Of a stretch of 64,000 bases of DNA, positions 13,383 through 23,701 are shown one piece after another (position 1 is the stretch's first letter; the number at the start of each line of letters is the position of its first letter). Location: positions 1 through 64,000 of the forward strand of contig CACPPV010000002.1 of assembly GCA_902635895.1 (NCBI GenBank), written 5' to 3'. The stretch comes from an uncultured Bacteroidota bacterium. Lineage in GTDB: Bacteria > Bacteroidota > Bacteroidia > Flavobacteriales > Flavobacteriaceae. Made by a program: the position numbers and the translations under genes. The notes beneath the pieces are model-generated. The model ran no database searches, was not told the DNA's origin, and worked only from the letters and a program-made list of their open reading frames with translations.

Positions 13383-16202
13383 ATGAGTGAAGTAATTTCT
13401 GTCAAAGGTGCTAGGGAACACAATTTAAAGAATATAGATATAAATATTCCTAGAAATAAACTTGTGGTTATCACAGGTCTTTCTGGAAGTGGAAAATCCT
13501 CATTAGCTTTTGATACAATATATGCTGAAGGACAAAGAAGATATATAGAAACATTTTCAGCCTATGCTAGACAGTTTATTGGTGGACTAGAAAGACCTGA
13601 TGTAGATAAGATTGATGGTCTTTCCCCAGTGATCGCTATTGAACAAAAAACAACATCAAAAAATCCTAGATCTACAGTTGGCACAATAACCGAAATATAT
13701 GATTATTTAAGATTATTGTATTCAAGAGTTTCTGATGCTTACAGTTCAGAAACAAATGAAAAAATGATAAATTATAGTGAAGATGAAATATTAGAGCTAA
13801 TTATTCAAAAATTTATTGGTAAAAAAATAAGTATACTCTCCCCTGTTGTGAAATCTAGAAAAGGACATTATAGAGAATTGTTTTCATCTATAATAAAACA
13901 AGGTTTTATAAAAACAAGAGTTGATGGAGAGATTAAAGATTTAACACCTGGATTTAAACTAGACCGTTACAAGACTCATGATATTGAAATTGTAGTTGAT
14001 AGAATGTCTTTAAGATCTGAAGAAAGCTGTTATAAAAGACTTAAAGAAAGTATAACAACAGCACTTTATCATGGAAACGATTCCTTATTAATAATTAATG
14101 AAGATAATAATGAAAGCTCTTACTTTAGTAAAAGCTTAATATGTCCATCCTCTGGAATTTCCTATGAAAAACCAGAACCAAACTCTTTTTCTTTTAATTC
14201 TCCAAAAGGAATGTGTAAAAGTTGTAATGGTTTAGGGATAGAAAATAAGGTTAATATAAATTTAATTATTCCAGACAATTCTATTTCAATTTATAATGGA
14301 GGAATAAAACCTTTAGGTAATTATAAAAAAAGTTGGATTTTCAAACAAATAGAAACAATTTCCAACAGATATAATTTTGATATAAAATCTCCCATAAATA
14401 AAATTCCAAAGAAAGCATTGGATATTATTTTAAATGGTGGAAACGAATCTTTTTCAATTGAATCGAAGACTTTAGGATTAACAAGAAAATATACTATTGA
14501 TTTTGAAGGCGTTATTACTTTTATTGAAAATCAATCAAAGGAAATATACAGTGCTAGAATAAAAAGATGGGCCAATAGTTTTATGGATAAAATAGAATGT
14601 GAAACTTGTAAAGGATCCAGATTAAACAACCAAACTAATTACTTCTTGATAAATGACAAGTCTATTCACGATTTAACAAATTTGGACATCGTTGATTTAA
14701 AGAAATGGTTTTCAAAAATTGAAACTAAACTTACTAAAAGAAAAAAAATTATTGCTTCTGAAATAATAAAAGAAATAAATAAAAGACTTGATTTTTTAAT
14801 TGATGTTGGACTTGACTACTTGTCATTAAATAGACCTGTAAGATCTCTTTCTGGAGGTGAATCCCAGAGAATAAGATTAGCTACTCAAATTGGATCTCAA
14901 CTTGTAGGTGTATTATACATACTAGATGAACCTAGTATTGGACTTCATCAAAGAGATAATTCAAAATTAATCGAATCGCTAAAAAAGTTAAGAGATTTAG
15001 GAAATACCATCATTGTAGTTGAGCATGACAAAGAAATTATGGAAAAGTCAGATTACATAATTGATATAGGTCCAAATGCAGGAAAAAATGGAGGTAATAT
15101 TATCTTTGAAGGAACTTTTGAAAAAATATTAAAATCTTCAACTGTAACAGCTAAGTTTTTAAATCAATTAGATTCTATTGATGTTCCTAAAAAAAGAAGA
15201 AAATCTGAGAAAAAACTTATATTAAATGGTTGCAAGGGAAATAATTTAAAAAATATTAATGTTGAATTTCCTTTGGGTCTGACAATTGCAGTAACTGGAG
15301 TTTCAGGAAGTGGAAAATCAACTTTAATTAACGAAACATTATATCCCATTTTAAATAATCACTTTTTCAACGGAGTTAAAGAACCATTGAAGTATAAATC
15401 AATTAAGGGCTTAGAATATTTGGATAAAGTCATAGAAATAAACCAATCTCCAATAGGGAGAACCCCAAGGAGTAATCCTGCAACCTACACAGGTGTATAC
15501 AGTGAAATAAGATCTCTTTTTTGTATGACTCAAGAGTCTTTAATTAGGGGTTATAAGCCTGGCAGATTTAGTTTTAATGTTGTTGGTGGTAGATGTGAAA
15601 CTTGTCAGGGTGCTGGTCTAAGAAAAATAGAAATGAATTTTTTACCTGATGTATACATCAATTGTGATGATTGCCAAGGCAAAAGGTTTAATCGTGAAAC
15701 ATTAGAGATTAGATATAAAGGAAAATCTATTTCTGATGTTTTGAACATGACAATAAATGAGAGTTGTAATTTTTTTGAGAATTTTCCTAAAATTTTAAGA
15801 AAATTAAAAACCTTGAAAGATGTTGGATTAGGTTATATTACATTAGGTCAACAATCTACTACCTTATCAGGTGGTGAGGCACAAAGAATTAAATTAGCTA
15901 GTGAATTATCTAAAAAAGATACAGGTAAAACAATTTATATTTTAGATGAACCAACTACTGGATTACATTTCCAAGATATTAAGGTCTTACTAGAAATGGT
16001 TAACAAATTAGTTAATAAAGGAAATACTATTATAATTATAGAACATAATATGGATGTTATTAAAACAGTAGATCATATAATTGAAATTGGACCAAATGGC
16101 GGAAAACTTGGAGGTAAAATTATTTTCAGTGGTTCACCTGAGGAGCTATGTAAGTTAAACGATAGCCCTACAGCTCATTATTTAAAAAAAGAGTTAACTT
16201 AG
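13383..16202 (+). CDS. uvrA: Excinuclease ABC subunit A
   Basis: 939 residues, full length for UvrA, the DNA damage sensor of nucleotide excision repair. Two ABC ATPase modules are present: first Walker A in TGLSGSGKSS near residue 33 with signature LSGGESQR, second Walker A in TGVSGSGKST near residue 645 with signature LSGGEAQR. The C-terminal zinc module is intact (CETC then CDDC). In the first zinc module the second ligand is missing: C254-P-S-S257 where E. coli has CxxC, while C278 and C281 are kept. The LOG-family gene follows 4 bp later, so they are probably co-transcribed. A TATTTTG upstream of the ATG is one base short of the promoter consensus. Confidence 0.97.
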   Translation: MSEVISVKGAREHNLKNIDINIPRNKLVVITGLSGSGKSSLAFDTIYAEGQRRYIETFSAYARQFIGGLERPDVDKIDGLSPVIAIEQKTTSKNPRSTVGTITEIYDYLRLLYSRVSDAYSSETNEKMINYSEDEILELIIQKFIGKKISILSPVVKSRKGHYRELFSSIIKQGFIKTRVDGEIKDLTPGFKLDRYKTHDIEIVVDRMSLRSEESCYKRLKESITTALYHGNDSLLIINEDNNESSYFSKSLICPSSGISYEKPEPNSFSFNSPKGMCKSCNGLGIENKVNINLIIPDNSISIYNGGIKPLGNYKKSWIFKQIETISNRYNFDIKSPINKIPKKALDIILNGGNESFSIESKTLGLTRKYTIDFEGVITFIENQSKEIYSARIKRWANSFMDKIECETCKGSRLNNQTNYFLINDKSIHDLTNLDIVDLKKWFSKIETKLTKRKKIIASEIIKEINKRLDFLIDVGLDYLSLNRPVRSLSGGESQRIRLATQIGSQLVGVLYILDEPSIGLHQRDNSKLIESLKKLRDLGNTIIVVEHDKEIMEKSDYIIDIGPNAGKNGGNIIFEGTFEKILKSSTVTAKFLNQLDSIDVPKKRRKSEKKLILNGCKGNNLKNINVEFPLGLTIAVTGVSGSGKSTLINETLYPILNNHFFNGVKEPLKYKSIKGLEYLDKVIEINQSPIGRTPRSNPATYTGVYSEIRSLFCMTQESLIRGYKPGRFSFNVVGGRCETCQGAGLRKIEMNFLPDVYINCDDCQGKRFNRETLEIRYKGKSISDVLNMTINESCNFFENFPKILRKLKTLKDVGLGYITLGQQSTTLSGGEAQRIKLASELSKKDTGKTIYILDEPTTGLHFQDIKVLLEMVNKLVNKGNTIIIIEHNMDVIKTVDHIIEIGPNGGKLGGKIIFSGSPEELCKLNDSPTAHYLKKELT

Positions 16203-16913: not shown

Positions 16914-19781
16914 ATGAAAAAATATTTATTTATATTTTTTTCACTTTGGTCTATTTTAATATTTTCTCAAAGCAACGAATACTTTATTGATGCTGAATTT
17001 CTTCCTAATGAGAAAAAAATTATACTAAATCAAACTATAAATTTTTTCAATCATAGTGATAATAATCTTTCACATATAATTCTTAATGATTGGTCTCACT
17101 CCTACTCATCCTCTTTATCTCCACTTGGTCAAAGACTTTCTGAAGACTTTACTTTAAATTTTCAAAGATCAACAAGAAACCAAAAAGGAAATACATTAAT
17201 AAAAGATTTATTAATAGACGATTCCTCTGTAAACTTTAAAAGAATTAATGATAATATAGATTTAATTAAAATAGACTTAAATGAAGAATTAAAACCAAAC
17301 GATGAAGTTTCTATTTCTATTACTTATGAAATCAAAGTACAAATTGACGATTTTACAGGTTACGGTATAGATAAAAACTTTAATATTAATTTATCTGAGT
17401 GGTTCATAACTCTTGCCAAATTAAAGGACGGAAAATGGGTAAATGAAAGTAATTTGGACTTAAACGATCTTTCTTTAGATCCTGCATATTATAATTTTAC
17501 TATTGTTTATCCATCAAATTACTTCATTATAAGTGACTTATCAATTCTATCAAAAGAAGAAAATTATGAAAAAATATTAATTAAAACTAAAAGACAACTT
17601 AAGATTAACAATCCTATTATTTTATCAAAAACGGACAATTTTAGAACATATCCTGTAAATAAAATAAAAATCATCACTGACCTTAATATTGATAAGAAAA
17701 ATAAATCTGATTCTTTAGTTAGTAAATTAATTAGATATGTAGATAAAAAGTCAGGAAATAATTTAAAAACAAATCAAAACGATTCTATCAAAATAGAGTT
17801 CATTTTAAATAAAACTTTGACTTTTCTTGAAAATAAACTAGGAAACTATCCAATAGATAATCTAGTTCTAAGTGAGTTTGATCTTAAAAAAAATCCTATA
17901 TATGGCTTTAACAATATTCCTGAAAGTTTATCTCCATACAAAGAGGGTTTTACCTATGAAATAAATATTTTAAAACTTTTAATCTCTCAATTTTTAAACA
18001 ATGCTTACCCTTTTCATAAAAGAGTAAATTATTGGGAAATTAAGGGTATTGAAACTTTTTTACTTATTTCATATTTAAAAGAATATCATTCTGATGTTAA
18101 TCTAATTGGGAAATTTTCAAACATGTCTATTTTAAAAAATAGAGAATATTCTAAATACAAATTTACAGATCAATTTAGGCTATTTGATAATATAATCTCA
18201 AGTAGAAATATTAATCAACCAATTAAAACACAGCTTGATTCTTTAACTAGAGTTAATTACAAAATAATCAATCCTTATAAAGCTGGTTTATCTTTAATTA
18301 TGTTAAATGATTACTTGGGGGGAAATGAATTAAATAAAACATTAAAGGAGTTCTCCAAAATCAATAAGTTAAATTCAGTAAACTATAAAAGCTTACTTGA
18401 AATTTTACAAAGTAAATATGATTTAAATTGGTTTGATAATTACTTAAAGTATAATGGAAATATAGATTTTTCTGTCAAGAAAATTGTTTCTAATAATAAA
18501 TCTAGATTTAAAGTTTCTAATTTATCTAAAATTGCTGTTCCAACTAAAATAACTTTTAAGAATGATAATGAAATAAACAACCATTGGATTCACTTTAAAA
18601 ATGACACAATTTTAGATCCTCTTGAAAATAGTCAAATCACAGTAAATAAAGACAAATTCTTTTCTGAAAGCAATTTTAATAATAATACATCCTTTCTTGA
18701 AAAAAGCAGGAAAAAAATAAAATTTGTACTGTTTAATGATTTTGATGATTACAAAAGTAAAAAGATCAACTATATGCCATTGTTTAATTATAATTTGTAT
18801 GACGGAATAATGCCTGGAATTTCTTTTTCTAATTCTTCCATAATCAGAAAACCTTTTAATTATAAAATAGTTCCATATTTTTCCACAAAACAAAAGGAAA
18901 TTCTGGGAAAGTTTAATTTAAAATTTACTGATTATAATGAAAATAAAAATTCAGACCTGTTCAGTGTAGACTATTTTATTGGAGGTTCAACGTTTCATTA
19001 CAAGGAAAACCTTTCATATGATACTTTTTTTCCATCTATTCTCTTTACTTTTAGAAACTCGGAAGATTTAAGATCTAATGCAAGAAAATACATTAGCCTT
19101 AGGTACATTAGTGTCTATCGTGAAGAAAACACAAACTTAATTGAGTATCCAAATTACAATATATTAAACTTAAAGTTTATATCATCTAACTCTACTGTTG
19201 AAAAAGCAAGAAATTATAAGACTGATTTTCAGTTCAATAAAGAATTTATAAAATTATCTTTTACGTATAATTATAGAAAATTTTATAAAAACAATAGACA
19301 ATATAATGTTAGGTTTTTCGCTGGTAAATTTTTAGAAAATAATACTAAAGATAATTTTTTTAGTTTTTCTACTTACAAGGCAAGAGATTATTTATTTAGT
19401 GCTTTTTTATTAGGAAGATCAGAAAATACAGGATTCTATAGCCAACAATATTTAGGTACTGAAGGTGGAATGAAATCTAAATTAGAAAATGAATTTTCAA
19501 ATGATCTTATTTTATCCTTAAACTCTGGAATTACAATTTGGCAATGGATTGAAGCATACGGAGGATTTGCCTTAATAAAAAACAAAAATAAAAAGCACAA
19601 ACTTGAGTATGAATCTGGTTTGAGATTAAATATTTTAACTGACTATTTTGAGTTGTATCTTCCTGCATATTCTTCTATTGGAAATGAATTTAGTCAAAGA
19701 GATTATTTAAGTAAAATTCGTTTTAGAATTTCATTTGATCCCAAGACTTTATCTAGTCTTATTTCTAGAAGATGGTTTTAA
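16914..19781 (+). CDS. M1-peptidase-like (gluzincin) protein without zinc ligands, fused to an outer-membrane beta-barrel
   Basis: 955 residues. Signal peptide about 1-18 (IFSQS). Residues about 20-230 resemble the M1 aminopeptidase beta-sandwich domain, and about 280-560 its catalytic domain, but the zinc site is gone: the expected HExxHQWxGN is K354-L-L-I-S-Q-F-L-N-N363, and the expected WLxEGxxxY glutamate is K377 in YWEIKGIETF. The C-terminal 300 residues alternate polar and hydrophobic residues and end in phenylalanine, typical of an outer-membrane barrel. So it is probably an envelope protein that kept the peptidase scaffold for binding or chaperoning. Function unknown; assignment to M1 rests on motif alignment by eye. 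It lies 20 bp after the LOG gene in the uvrA unit. Confidence 0.75.
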   Translation: MKKYLFIFFSLWSILIFSQSNEYFIDAEFLPNEKKIILNQTINFFNHSDNNLSHIILNDWSHSYSSSLSPLGQRLSEDFTLNFQRSTRNQKGNTLIKDLLIDDSSVNFKRINDNIDLIKIDLNEELKPNDEVSISITYEIKVQIDDFTGYGIDKNFNINLSEWFITLAKLKDGKWVNESNLDLNDLSLDPAYYNFTIVYPSNYFIISDLSILSKEENYEKILIKTKRQLKINNPIILSKTDNFRTYPVNKIKIITDLNIDKKNKSDSLVSKLIRYVDKKSGNNLKTNQNDSIKIEFILNKTLTFLENKLGNYPIDNLVLSEFDLKKNPIYGFNNIPESLSPYKEGFTYEINILKLLISQFLNNAYPFHKRVNYWEIKGIETFLLISYLKEYHSDVNLIGKFSNMSILKNREYSKYKFTDQFRLFDNIISSRNINQPIKTQLDSLTRVNYKIINPYKAGLSLIMLNDYLGGNELNKTLKEFSKINKLNSVNYKSLLEILQSKYDLNWFDNYLKYNGNIDFSVKKIVSNNKSRFKVSNLSKIAVPTKITFKNDNEINNHWIHFKNDTILDPLENSQITVNKDKFFSESNFNNNTSFLEKSRKKIKFVLFNDFDDYKSKKINYMPLFNYNLYDGIMPGISFSNSSIIRKPFNYKIVPYFSTKQKEILGKFNLKFTDYNENKNSDLFSVDYFIGGSTFHYKENLSYDTFFPSILFTFRNSEDLRSNARKYISLRYISVYREENTNLIEYPNYNILNLKFISSNSTVEKARNYKTDFQFNKEFIKLSFTYNYRKFYKNNRQYNVRFFAGKFLENNTKDNFFSFSTYKARDYLFSAFLLGRSENTGFYSQQYLGTEGGMKSKLENEFSNDLILSLNSGITIWQWIEAYGGFALIKNKNKKHKLEYESGLRLNILTDYFELYLPAYSSIGNEFSQRDYLSKIRFRISFDPKTLSSLISRRWF

Positions 19782-19837: not shown

Positions 19838-22252
19838 ATGGAAAACAACATAGATCTAAACCAAGAAATATCCTTTGATACTTTCAAAAAACAAGTTTTA
19901 AACGACTATAGAACCATTGTTTTAAGTAGAGAGGCTAGTTTACTTGGAAGAAGAGAAGTTTTGAGCGGGAAAGCAAAGTTTGGAATTTTTGGTGACGGAA
20001 AAGAGCTTCCTCAAATAGCAATGTCAAAAGTCTTCATGAAAGGAGATTATAGGTCAGGATATTATAGAGATCAAACTTTTATGATGGCTATTGATGAATT
20101 GTCTGTCAAACAATTGTTTTCTGGATTGTATGCTAATAATGATATAAAAGAAGAGCCAATGTCAGCTGGAAGACAAATGGGGGCTCACTTCAATACTCCT
20201 TTTTTGAACGAAGATGGAAGCTGGAAAAATCTTACAGAACTAAAAAATTCATCTTCTGATGTATCATGTACAGCATCTCAAATGCCTAGATTATTAGGAT
20301 TAGCTCAAGCTTCAAAATTGTACAGAAAATTAAACATTGAAAATTCTGAAAAATTTTCTAATAATGGAAATGAAATTGCCTGGGGTACTATCGGAAATGC
20401 AAGCACTAGTGAAGGGTTGTTTTTTGAAATTTTAAATGCAGCTGGGGTTCAACAAGTTCCTATGGTTATTAGTATTTGGGATGATAACTATGGAATTTCA
20501 GTTGAAAATAAAGACCAAACAATAAAAGAAAGTATTTCTGATGCCTTATCTGGCTTTAAAAAAACTTCAAATTCAAATGGATTTGAAATTTTTTCTGTAA
20601 GAGGATGGGATTATCCAAACCTAATTAATACCTATCAAAAAGCTAGTGATATAGCAAGAGAGAAGCATATTCCAGTGATAATACATGTCAAGGAATTAAC
20701 TCAACCCATTGGACATTCAACTTCAGGATCACACGAAAGATATAAATCCAAAGAACGTTTAGAATGGGAAAGAAACAATGATTGTAATTTAAAAATGAAA
20801 CAATGGATAGTTGACAATCAAATTTCTACTTTAGATTATCTTCAAGAAATTGAAAATGAGTGTAAAGAATTTGTAAAGCAATCAAAAAATGAAGCTTGGG
20901 AAACATATTTAAAACCAATTTTAAAAATAAGAGACGAATACATAAGAGTTTTAGAAACTTTAATTTCTAAACATTCTGATTATTCTTTAGAAAAATTTTA
21001 CAATCAGTTACAGAGAATTAAAGAACCTAATAAAAAAGATATTTTATCTAACGCAAGAAAAGTTTTAAGATTACTGTTTAAAGAAAAATCCAAAGAAATA
21101 GAAGTTTTAAAGAACTGGATTAATGAGTTTTTAAAAACTCAAAACGAGGTATACAGTTCAAAACTATATAACGAATACAAAACCAATCATCATAATGTTA
21201 CGAAAGTTGAGCCAATTTATGATGATACATCAAAAAAAGTTGATGGTAGAATTATCTTGAGAAATAATTTTGATCATTTACTTTCAAAATATGACAACCT
21301 TGTAATTTTTGGAGAAGACTCTGGAAAAATTGGTGATGTTAATCAAGGCCTTGAAGGTCTTCAAGAAAAGTATGGGAAATACCGAGTTTCAGATAAAGGA
21401 ATTAGAGAGGCATCTATAATTGGAGAAGGAATTGGCCTTGCACTTAGAGGCATTAGACCAATTGCTGAAATTCAATACATAGATTATTTGTTATATGGAT
21501 TACAAATATTAAGTGATGATCTTGCAACTCTACATTATAGAACATTTGGAAGACAAATTGCACCACTAATCATAAGAACTCGAGGTCACCGATTAGAGGG
21601 TATATGGCACTCAGGTTCTCCAATGAATGCTATGTTATCAACTTTAAGGGGCATTAATATTCTTGTTCCACGAAATATGGTTCAAGCTGCAGGAATGTAT
21701 AATACATTATTAAAATGTGATGAACCTGCTGTTTTAGTTGAGTCTCTAAACGGATATAGATTAAAAGAAAGTGAACCAAAAAATCTTTCTGACTATACAG
21801 TTCTTCTCGGACAATCTGAGTTAATTAAATCTGGAACTGATATAACAATAATTTCTTATGGATCAACATTAAGACTTGCTGAAAAGGCATGTGAAGAGTT
21901 ATTAAATTTAAATATTAAGTGTGATTTAATTGACATTCAGACTTTAATACCTTTTGATTTGAATAATCTGACTATTGAGAGTTTGAAAAAAACAAACAAA
22001 CTATTAATTGTTGATGAAGATCTTCCTGGTGGAGCTTCTTCATACATTCTTCAGAAAATATTACAAGAAAAAAACGGGTTTGAATATTTAGATGCAAAAC
22101 CTCTAACACTTACCTCCAAAAATCATAGACCAGCTTATGGAACTGATGGTGATTATTTTTCAAAACCATCCATTGAAGATATCGTGGAAGAGTCATATAA
22201 AATAATGAGTGAGTACGATCCTATTAATTATCCTGAAATTTTTAACTCATAA
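19838..22252 (+). CDS. 2-oxoacid dehydrogenase E1 component, alpha and beta subunits fused
   Basis: 804 residues joining the two halves of a thiamine-diphosphate E1. The alpha half (about 1-380) has the ThDP-binding region GTIGNASTSEG and IWDDNYGISV; the beta half (about 470-800) has FGEDSGKIGDVNQG, the EGIGLALRGIRPIAEIQYIDY segment and a transketolase C-terminal domain. These enzymes decarboxylate 2-oxoacids and load the acyl group onto the lipoyl E2. Similarity to branched-chain (2-oxoisovalerate) E1 is the best guess; pyruvate is possible. The fusion is typical of Flavobacteriia. No E2 or E3 gene is adjacent. Its 3' end overlaps holA by 11 bp. Confidence 0.88.
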   Translation: MENNIDLNQEISFDTFKKQVLNDYRTIVLSREASLLGRREVLSGKAKFGIFGDGKELPQIAMSKVFMKGDYRSGYYRDQTFMMAIDELSVKQLFSGLYANNDIKEEPMSAGRQMGAHFNTPFLNEDGSWKNLTELKNSSSDVSCTASQMPRLLGLAQASKLYRKLNIENSEKFSNNGNEIAWGTIGNASTSEGLFFEILNAAGVQQVPMVISIWDDNYGISVENKDQTIKESISDALSGFKKTSNSNGFEIFSVRGWDYPNLINTYQKASDIAREKHIPVIIHVKELTQPIGHSTSGSHERYKSKERLEWERNNDCNLKMKQWIVDNQISTLDYLQEIENECKEFVKQSKNEAWETYLKPILKIRDEYIRVLETLISKHSDYSLEKFYNQLQRIKEPNKKDILSNARKVLRLLFKEKSKEIEVLKNWINEFLKTQNEVYSSKLYNEYKTNHHNVTKVEPIYDDTSKKVDGRIILRNNFDHLLSKYDNLVIFGEDSGKIGDVNQGLEGLQEKYGKYRVSDKGIREASIIGEGIGLALRGIRPIAEIQYIDYLLYGLQILSDDLATLHYRTFGRQIAPLIIRTRGHRLEGIWHSGSPMNAMLSTLRGINILVPRNMVQAAGMYNTLLKCDEPAVLVESLNGYRLKESEPKNLSDYTVLLGQSELIKSGTDITIISYGSTLRLAEKACEELLNLNIKCDLIDIQTLIPFDLNNLTIESLKKTNKLLIVDEDLPGGASSYILQKILQEKNGFEYLDAKPLTLTSKNHRPAYGTDGDYFSKPSIEDIVEESYKIMSEYDPINYPEIFNS

Positions 22253-23252
22253 TTTGTACAATCAATTGATTTAGAAGATTACTATGAGTGTTACTATTAG
22301 AACCTAAACCTTTACTTTTTAAGTCAACATCTTTTATTAATGAAATAATTTTTGATATTTTTTTCATTGAATAAAGATTTGATGCATTTACATATTCATT
22401 AACGAAAAACCTATTTATTCCAAGAGTTAAGGAAATATTATTTTCAGATTTATTTTTAAGACTATGTAGTTGAAAGATTTGAATAAAAAAGCTGAATAAT
22501 GAACCCAAGACATATGGAACTGGATAACTTTTGGAATTATTTGAAAAATACTTTCCAATTAGCAAAGCTTTTTCTTTGTTTCCAGATCCAATTGCTTTTC
22601 TAAGTTCAAAGACATTGTAGTCTTTACTGATTCCTATATTTTTTTCAATAAGTTCAGGTGTAATTTTATTATTCTCAGGATTTAATAACTTCAATTTATC
22701 TATTTGATTGGAAATCATTTTTAAATCATTGCCTAAATATTCAACTAACATTTGACTTGCTTTAAAATCAATCGAATAATTAGTTTGTCTTAATTGATTT
22801 GAAATCCAATCCGAAACTTGATTTTCATACATTTTTTTTGATTCGAAAACAACACCAAATTTTTTAATTGATTTGTATATTTTTTTTCTTTTATCAAGAG
22901 ATTTGTATTTGTAATTAACCACCAAAATAGTACTGTGCATTGGATTATTAGCATAATTGTCTAATTCATTTATTTTTAATGATAAATCCTGAGCTTCTTT
23001 CAAAATAACTAATTGAAATTTACTCATCATAGGGTATCTTTTACAAACTGAAACTACTTCGTCAATAGTAGTATCTTTTCCATATAATATTGTCTGATTG
23101 AAACTTTTTTCATCCTCATTTAAAACCAATTCTTCAAGCATTTCGGTAAATAAATCAATATAATGCGTTTCTTCACCCATAAAAAAGTATATAGGCGAAA
23201 AAACTTTATTATTAATTTTTGAAATTATACTGTTTATTTCTTGTAAATTCAT
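22242..23252 (-). CDS. holA: DNA polymerase III delta subunit (clamp loader)
   Basis: 336 residues, the usual length for HolA. The N-terminal FSPIYFFMGEETHYIDLF segment matches the start of the AAA+-like delta fold, and the C-terminal third is the helical collar domain. Delta opens the beta clamp during loading at the replication fork. DnaN, its partner, is at 49796. Start ATG 23252; immediately upstream is TAAGTTTA then TTAA then ATG, an imperfect promoter box at the spacing expected for a leaderless mRNA. It is divergent from the HsdR_N gene with an 11-bp gap and convergent with the E1 gene. Confidence 0.9.
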   Translation of the reverse strand: MNLQEINSIISKINNKVFSPIYFFMGEETHYIDLFTEMLEELVLNEDEKSFNQTILYGKDTTIDEVVSVCKRYPMMSKFQLVILKEAQDLSLKINELDNYANNPMHSTILVVNYKYKSLDKRKKIYKSIKKFGVVFESKKMYENQVSDWISNQLRQTNYSIDFKASQMLVEYLGNDLKMISNQIDKLKLLNPENNKITPELIEKNIGISKDYNVFELRKAIGSGNKEKALLIGKYFSNNSKSYPVPYVLGSLFSFFIQIFQLHSLKNKSENNISLTLGINRFFVNEYVNASNLYSMKKISKIISLIKDVDLKSKGLGSNSNTHSNLLNQLIVQIMS

Positions 23253-23263
23253 TTAATAAACTT

Positions 23264-23701
23264 ATGATAAAGTTAGATTTCCCAGATTTTGAATTTAAGC
23301 TAAAAAAAATAGATTCTAAAACTTTTATTTTCGATTTTATAAGAAATAATTATTATTTATTAACACCTGAAGAATGGGTAAGACAACATGTTGTTAAGTT
23401 TTTATTTTCAAAAGGAATACCTAAATCACACATAGCTCTAGAAAAAAGTTTTACAATAAACAATCTTAAAAAAAGGTTTGATGTTGTTGTATACAATTCT
23501 TCTGGGAAAACTATGATGCTTATTGAATGTAAATCACCGTCTGTCAAAATCACTCAAAAAATTTTTGATCAAATTTCTATATATAATATCAAATTGAAAT
23601 CCGAGTACTTAATGATCACAAATGGATTAAATCATCTATATTTCAAGATTGATGAAATCAATAAAAGACATATTTTTGTTAAAGACTTTCCTTTAAAATG
23701 A
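23264..23701 (+). CDS. Orphan HsdR N-terminal-like (PD-(D/E)XK nuclease-fold) protein
   Basis: 145 residues from ATG 23264; I prefer this to upstream starts inside holA. It matches the HsdR_N_2 type: LTPEEWVRQHVV, then a PD-(D/E)XK core with D73 (RFDVVVYN), E88 and K90 (LIECKSP), and a following glutamine (Q97 or Q103). The full type I restriction subunit has a helicase motor about six times longer, which is absent, and no hsdM or hsdS is nearby. The function is unknown. In flavobacteria I recall such genes lying next to holA, which would fit a DNA-metabolism role. The stop codon overlaps the next gene's start (ATGA), indicating translational coupling. Confidence 0.8.
   Translation: MIKLDFPDFEFKLKKIDSKTFIFDFIRNNYYLLTPEEWVRQHVVKFLFSKGIPKSHIALEKSFTINNLKKRFDVVVYNSSGKTMMLIECKSPSVKITQKIFDQISIYNIKLKSEYLMITNGLNHLYFKIDEINKRHIFVKDFPLK

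Follow-up and report, generated by a model that had tools for sequence, protein, structure and literature searches.

M1 aminopeptidases such as tricorn factor F3, ERAP1/2, IRAP and PepN (PF01433) possess a C-terminal helical domain, and the aminopeptidase fold also occurs in a non-peptidase setting in the eukaryotic nuclear protein TAF2, which is not known to have a functional zinc site and serves as a scaffold. TAF2 is described as the aminopeptidase-homology subunit of the TFIID complex that contacts promoter DNA via its domain D3 (PMC6220335, PMC4309443); a description of TAF2 as catalytically inactive was not found in the open-licence PubMed Central literature. Enzyme-type N-terminal domains on Omp85-type barrels have been reported for the patatin protein PlpD, which carries a POTRA domain, and for the 'Metallo' class (Heinz and Lithgow 2014, PMC4104836). 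The 'Metallo' domain is called a metalloprotease there, yet given as PF00149, which in Pfam represents calcineurin-like phosphoesterases and not M1, and 'peptidase' was not found as a word start in the available part of that paper; the same source also lists a 'noNterm' Omp85 class without POTRA domains. The present study concerns a gene (16914–19781, + strand, ATG start) in a 64,000-nucleotide stretch of DNA (hereafter the window) from an uncultured member of the Flavobacteriaceae (assembly GCA_902635895.1, contig CACPPV010000002.1, positions 1 to 64,000), the product of which (955 residues) joins a pseudo-M1 peptidase domain to an outer-membrane-type barrel. This protein is probably a conserved outer-membrane pseudo-peptidase, the presumably periplasmic M1 domain of which would bind or scaffold without cutting while sitting on an Omp85-like barrel. 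Pseudo-enzymes and Omp85 barrels are each known; their union in one protein, with a pseudo-M1 domain preceding an Omp85-like barrel, is a new combination. Among the titles listed from the open-licence PubMed Central literature, none was found to deal with an M1-barrel fusion, whether its site is intact or dead, and the available part of the Omp85 census (PMC4104836) names none.

Over its whole length, the window protein contains neither HExxH nor H-x3-H. The columns 354/355/358/377, which are occupied by H/E/H/E in intact relatives, fall on the segment KLLISQFLNN (residues 354–363, 17973–18002; 128-row alignment) and on K377 (18042–18044), with none of the four ligand and catalytic residues being present. 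The original prediction, made from the sequence alone, had named this loss at the HExxH position and the replacement of the later ligand glutamate by K377, and the alignments agree with both. Its broader wording, that every zinc ligand is gone, holds for the window protein and needs qualification for the clade, as 10 of 123 ligand-less relatives keep the catalytic glutamate, the second histidine and the third-ligand glutamate, only the first histidine being replaced. Likewise, from the proposed remnants of HExxHQWxGN the absence of both histidines and of the glutamate stands, whereas the match of N363 to the last asparagine is probably a coincidence, since intact relatives read HEVGHNWFYG there. 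The missing HExxH is not due to chance, because its absence is shared by 123 of the 128 aligned homologues, 117 of which have lysine at the first-histidine column; asparagine at 333 and proline at 328 are found in 112 and 113 of these 123 ligand-less rows, respectively. The substrate loop of the GxMEN type, reading GGMEYP in intact relatives, is gone as well, and its place is taken in the window's clade by a PxYGxN segment (residues 328–333, 17895–17912). The register of this segment shifts by one, placing N333 on the glutamate column in one alignment and on the methionine column in the other; in neither does the window protein have a glutamate at the glutamate column of the loop. Judged from the alignment, P454 occupies the column of the intact row's tyrosine, which we take to be the transition-state tyrosine of M1 enzymes, and a conserved Y455 (110/123 ligand-less rows) stands one residue further. 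Y455 might be taken for a kept catalytic tyrosine, but in the alignment it is displaced by one column from the tyrosine of the intact row.

These residues also bear on the possibility that the protein is still an enzyme, with a site rebuilt from lysine and aspartate or with altered metal binding and a chemistry other than that of a classic aminopeptidase. Consistent with such a site are the newly fixed K354 and N333, an aspartate or glutamate at column 377 in 93/123 ligand-less rows, which could pair with K354, and the 10 rows with retained catalytic glutamate, second histidine and third-ligand glutamate. Against it, 82/123 rows, including the window protein, keep no residue of H, E, H and E, column 377 is lysine in 14/123, again including the window protein, and the GxMEN loop and apparently also the tyrosine column have been lost too, which renders continued catalysis quite unlikely. 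Among these 10 rows, two sequences from the window's genus (L015, L020) display K-E-x-x-H together with the third-ligand glutamate, and a further sequence of the genus (L024) has K-E-x-x-H with aspartate at the third ligand; this may represent either a remnant or a return of ligands within one genus.

The fold of the N-terminal part was assessed with a full-length AlphaFold2 model based on the 42-row alignment A1 (42 of 48 sequences; L018, L019, L023, L047, L051 and L052 excluded), which reached a predicted local distance difference test score (pLDDT) of 87.0 and a predicted template modelling score (pTM) of 0.86. All 50 Foldseek matches listed for this model are M1 aminopeptidases (best E 6.6e-16), and VIA comparison of residues 19–647 yielded tricorn factor F3 (3q7j) with Z 21.4 over 439 aligned residues at a root-mean-square deviation of 3.2 Å, with Z of about 19–21 across the 50 M1 aminopeptidases listed. 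Searches of the window protein against Pfam and NCBIfam returned no family above cut-off; in the genome search PF01433 (Peptidase_M1) remained sub-threshold with 18.8 bits (cut-off 27.7) over residues 424–503 (18183–18422). Among the A1 rows, 21/42 match PF01433 at E 0.05 or better, while only 4 of the 42 have an intact site. Thus, the computation supports the proposed M1-like scaffold, that is, a predicted M1 aminopeptidase fold without zinc ligands or catalytic glutamate. Of the two findings named in the original prediction as refuting it, a structure lacking the M1 fold and an intact HExxH at another place in the chain, neither was obtained. Fold and profile kinship are shared with the M1 aminopeptidases; the window protein differs from them by the absence of the zinc ligands, the catalytic glutamate and GxMEN, and by a barrel in place of the C-terminal helical domain. 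Three other M1 proteins encoded in the window's genome exceed the PF01433 cut-off and keep HExxH.

According to the model, a probable signal peptide (residues 1–19, 16914–16970; helix 2–17, cleavage site set by eye), which is not of the lipoprotein type as no cysteine is found in the cleavage region, is followed by an M1-like N-terminal beta domain of approximate borders (about residues 20–243, 16971–17642; fold matches start at residue 19) and by the M1-like catalytic-domain fold without ligands (about residues 244–515, 17643–18458). A beta domain (residues 519–590, 18468–18683; strands at 519–577) links the M1 fold to the barrel and presumably stands where M1 domain III stands.

Intact relatives of the fusion are found across the class, where a profile search gave a match in 283/296 genomes, ordinary M1 proteins counted too. 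HExxH is kept in 56 of 57 sequences from other families of the class (L145–L201), the 56 also retaining the third-ligand glutamate, and the order-level intact relatives L042 and L048 exceed the PF01433 cut-off. A first tree was calculated from 116 rows (61 intact, 55 ligand-less; the pairs L044/L144 and L045/L143 are duplicate sequences) after removal of the site's own columns, and placed two changes, one for a 54-row clade in the window's order (support of 92 in the Shimodaira-Hasegawa-like approximate likelihood ratio test, SH-aLRT) and the other for L175 alone. The second tree, inferred under a mixture model, comprised 76 rows (40 intact, 36 ligand-less), namely 13 from the window's family, 12 order-level rows (L039–L050), 30 of the 56 intact class rows, L175 and 20 new order-level rows, with the long-branched L051 as well as L052 left out. 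It likewise placed two changes and recovered a ligand-less clade of 35 rows (SH-aLRT 100). In both trees intact L042 is the sister of the ligand-less clade; in the second tree this pair has a support of 99 and is followed by intact rows of family f14 (100). The computation therefore supports the view that the zinc site was lost once, in an ancestor belonging to the window's order (Flavobacteriales according to the titles of named relatives), and that the starting point was the intact fusion seen across the class. In L042, the intact gene sits 87 bases upstream of a gene for an E1-type dehydrogenase, the same gene that lies downstream of the window gene. This E1 gene is also near the ligand-less genes of families f12 and f2 and of one of two f7 loci; a LOG gene stands beside that of f3, and neither is nearby in f5 and at the other f7 locus. 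Since E1 accompanies intact L042 and several ligand-less genes alike, the loss of the site most likely occurred at this locus itself.

Further observations were made on relatives outside this clade. L175 (family f42) is a ligand-less M1-barrel protein outside the window's order, situated on a long branch and representing a second loss. Four f7 genomes harbour intact M1-barrel copies (L316–L319) branching apart from the ligand-less clade; two of these genomes (G464, G396) also carry a ligand-less copy and the other two a second match. Upstream of intact L042 and L048, genes for a PadR regulator and a PspC/ToastRack protein are located on the same strand (L202:5606–7578, L203:5966–8075) and may represent an envelope-stress operon. 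In other families of the class, intact M1-barrel genes are directly preceded, within about 15 bases, by an open reading frame (ORF) for a DUF4369-thioredoxin-type protein (L212:10780–11886, L213:6772–7932, L220:11207–12325).

The ligand-less form is found across Flavobacteriaceae, including the window's genus with its assemblies of 1.1–1.9 Mb. BLAST detected a match in 48/60 genomes searched, the window's own included; among the 21 other genomes of the window's genus 19 matched, the two without a match being 68 and 78 percent complete. Among the matches listed, 39/40 genomes of the window's family have one match each, G466 having two pieces. A scan of titled genome contigs with the single protein as query revealed no relative, and a second scan with A1 as query at least 583 encoding stretches. 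The best 80 of these were kept, so that the gene-order and residue counts made on them lean to near relatives; they are mostly titled Flavobacteriaceae or its genera, and all lack HExxH and have K354 (80/80). The orthologue alignment called for by the original prediction thus extends the absence of HExxH well beyond the window protein.

The C-terminal barrel (residues 592–955, 18687–19778) was folded alone with alignment A2 (78 of 98 barrels), resulting in a model with pLDDT 92.6, 16 strands by our own count and, connecting strands 11 and 12, a loop of 55 residues (810–864, 19341–19505) at the place of Omp85 loop L6. The strand count was derived from 18 pieces in the tool's list by omitting model residues 10–15 and joining 109–114 with 117–123. 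Accordingly, the model supports the anticipated barrel, which spans about residues 615–939; the final phenylalanine, thought to end it, lies outside the terminal strand, because a short predicted helix (943–954) follows at the end of the chain. The 50 Foldseek matches listed for the barrel are all Sam50, TamA, BamA or FhaC (best E 8.1e-7), and VIA ranked Deinococcus radiodurans BamA first (Z 18.1 over 285 residues). As porins reach up to Z 14.3 and many other Omp85 entries Z 14–16.5, only the top VIA rows are clear of the background and much of the list is tied with porins. The predicted barrel thus has in common with the Omp85 barrels (BamA, TamA/TamL, Sam50, FhaC) the 16 strands as counted by us, the long loop between strands 11 and 12 and the best fold matches, and differs from them by lacking POTRA domains and a PF01103 match. 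In the model, residues 19–590 are filled by the M1 fold and the beta domain, without a POTRA domain. In the loop, D825, Y826, R835, Q845, G851 and K854 are near-invariant (120–123 of 123 ligand-less rows). The RGF/Y-type motif reported for the corresponding barrel loop of BamA (PMC12611786) was not found in this loop; a GRSE-type segment with the near-invariant R835 stands there instead, and one may conjecture that R835 does the same job.

Kinship with the Omp85 superfamily was also sought at the level of sequence. A profile search of the PDB with the barrel gave no match, nor did PF01103 in the 78 barrel rows. In local hhalign comparisons, a 5-row Omp85 set, so labelled by our own guess, reached a probability of 38 (E 3.4e-4) with an in-order alignment over strands 10–14, followed by this set pooled with TamL (6.2), BamA (1.1) and TamL (0.7); the controls FadL and Porin_O_P gave 0.2, reversed queries 0.2–0.7, and global mode 0.0–0.9 for all six sets. 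With the likeness coming from structure and sequence support being weak, the barrel is called Omp85-like and not filed as an Omp85 member. DUF5686 (PF18939), a family of Bacteroidota barrels, was considered as well and rejected, with a weak match in 1/78 barrel rows (E 0.0029) and a probability of 1.9 in the hhalign comparison. BamM and BamP of the Flavobacterium johnsoniae BAM complex, considered because one subunit of this complex contains metal, are not the same protein: BamM is described as a lipoprotein of the cell surface that has a PPI-fold domain and binds seven ions, interpreted as calcium (PMC12611786), and neither 'peptidase' nor 'metallopeptidase' was found as a word start in the available part of that paper.

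Constraint on the two halves was compared by means of the ratio of non-synonymous to synonymous substitution rates (dN/dS). Of the 11 pairs formed, three showed saturation in the M1 part as well as in the barrel, and the two pairs with the window protein had dS of 1.5–2.7, too high to be trusted; the six usable pairs gave 0.096–0.163 for the M1 part and 0.042–0.116 for the barrel, supporting continued purifying selection on both. Comparison of 49 of the 55 ligand-less rows with 60 of the 61 intact rows revealed K354 in 46/49 (H in 60/60 intact), N333 in 45/49 (M in 60/60) and D185 in 46/49 (E in 60/60), position 148 also differing (T versus S); positions 60, 92, 151, 399, 448, 543, 558 and 585 of the M1 part are invariant in 49/49 ligand-less rows. 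Such group-specific fixed residues are what is seen when a site has changed but remains under constraint, and the M1-barrel gene is neither a one-off nor decaying. An M1 peptidase fusion losing its function in this lineage, for which the vanished four zinc-site residues and substrate loop and the stops in a few order-level fragments (one in G466, one in one G396 fragment, two in one G397 fragment) might be invoked, is scarcely credible in view of the open frames of 939–980 residues without inner stops in genus and family rows (except L018, cut by a contig end at 846), of dN/dS well below 1 and of K354 in 80/80 named relatives.

In each of the six usable pairs, evolution is more rapid in the M1 half than in the barrel; this would also be compatible with a mere anchor or spacer, i.e., an M1 remnant without a binding role of its own on a barrel (e.g., a channel) that performs the entire function and needs a folded periplasmic partner. 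The near-invariant barrel loop residues and the variation of the pseudo-site residues among families agree with this view. The purifying selection acting on the M1 part itself, its eight invariant positions and the constancy of K354 do not, and a spacer is considered rather unlikely. Besides the faster M1 half, several further points weigh against a pseudo-peptidase with a binding role. The 10 ligand-less rows retaining three of the four residues might still bind metal. Families other than the window's vary in their pseudo-site residues (K; G or N; Q, T or H with A and E), including f5 and f7, where other residues stand at the site, so that no single new site is common to the whole clade; this and the 10 rows count against one new function for all its members. 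The kinship of the barrel to Omp85 rests on predicted structure, and both trees are quick searches without bootstrap. Lastly, the A1 alignment behind the full-length model held four intact relatives; for this reason, a profile was built from the 33 ligand-less rows alone, and it still matches M1 structures (best E 1.4e-5).

For the proposed pseudo-peptidase the following arrangement is envisaged. The protein would be exported, and the barrel inserted into the outer membrane with its two termini facing the periplasm, such that the M1 domain would hang in the periplasm at the place held by POTRA domains in BamA-like proteins. The old substrate cleft, which in the window's family carries the fixed lysine for the first zinc histidine and PxYGxN for GxMEN, would most likely bind a peptide, an unfolded protein or a partner subunit and leave it uncut, so that the M1 domain would serve the barrel as receptor or scaffold. 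TAF2 may be viewed as a precedent for an aminopeptidase fold in a non-peptidase setting, being likened by description, and differs as a eukaryotic nuclear protein without a barrel. A more specific version is advanced with considerable reserve: an Omp85-type assembly or translocation machine of the Flavobacteriales, in which a retired M1 peptidase instead of POTRA domains would take the substrate and the cleft would keep unfolded proteins of the outer membrane or the cell surface beneath the barrel. Alternatively, the barrel might export the M1 domain that precedes it in the same chain to the cell surface, as has been proposed for PlpD (PMC4104836), with which the order of the parts, N-terminal domain followed by an Omp85-like barrel, is shared. 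The gene is present in most related genomes searched and mostly at one locus, unlike a patchily distributed virulence passenger, and export of the domain by its own barrel is regarded as very unlikely.

In the window, uvrA (13383–16202), a LOG-type gene (TIGR00730; 16207–16893), the M1-barrel gene and the gene for an E1-type dehydrogenase with E1_dh and transketolase domains (19838–22252) are all located on the + strand and separated by 4, 20 and 56 bases, respectively. The unit with uvrA and the LOG gene, as originally proposed, fits this spacing and the conserved gene order; a single transcript covering all four genes would be in line with it. Of the 80 kept loci, 79 have LOG, 78 have E1 and 77 have uvrA, with other genes intervening at some of them; all three are missing at L081, E1 at L077, and uvrA at L090 and L105 (on contigs 6.0 and 5.4 kb long). 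Among 20 loci from outside the window's family, 4 have E1 nearby (with three ORFs in between at L209), 1 has LOG and 15 have neither. Gene neighbourhood was therefore dismissed as a clue to function, as the neighbours of intact relatives differ and no single partner emerged. Further downstream, a 160-residue ORF with TTG start (23219–23701) matches HSDR_N_2, the N-terminal domain of type I restriction enzyme R proteins; it stands alone between holA and a putative glycosyltransferase gene and recurs in 35 of the 80 loci.

The way in which Bacteroidota assemble and export their numerous surface proteins is, to our knowledge, an open question, for which a conserved, presumably outer-membrane protein whose fold is of a peptide-binding kind provides a testable candidate. 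Along the tree, intact and dead sites form a natural series, and the retention of the protein by selection after an ancestral loss of the zinc site points to a non-enzymatic job in the outer membrane.

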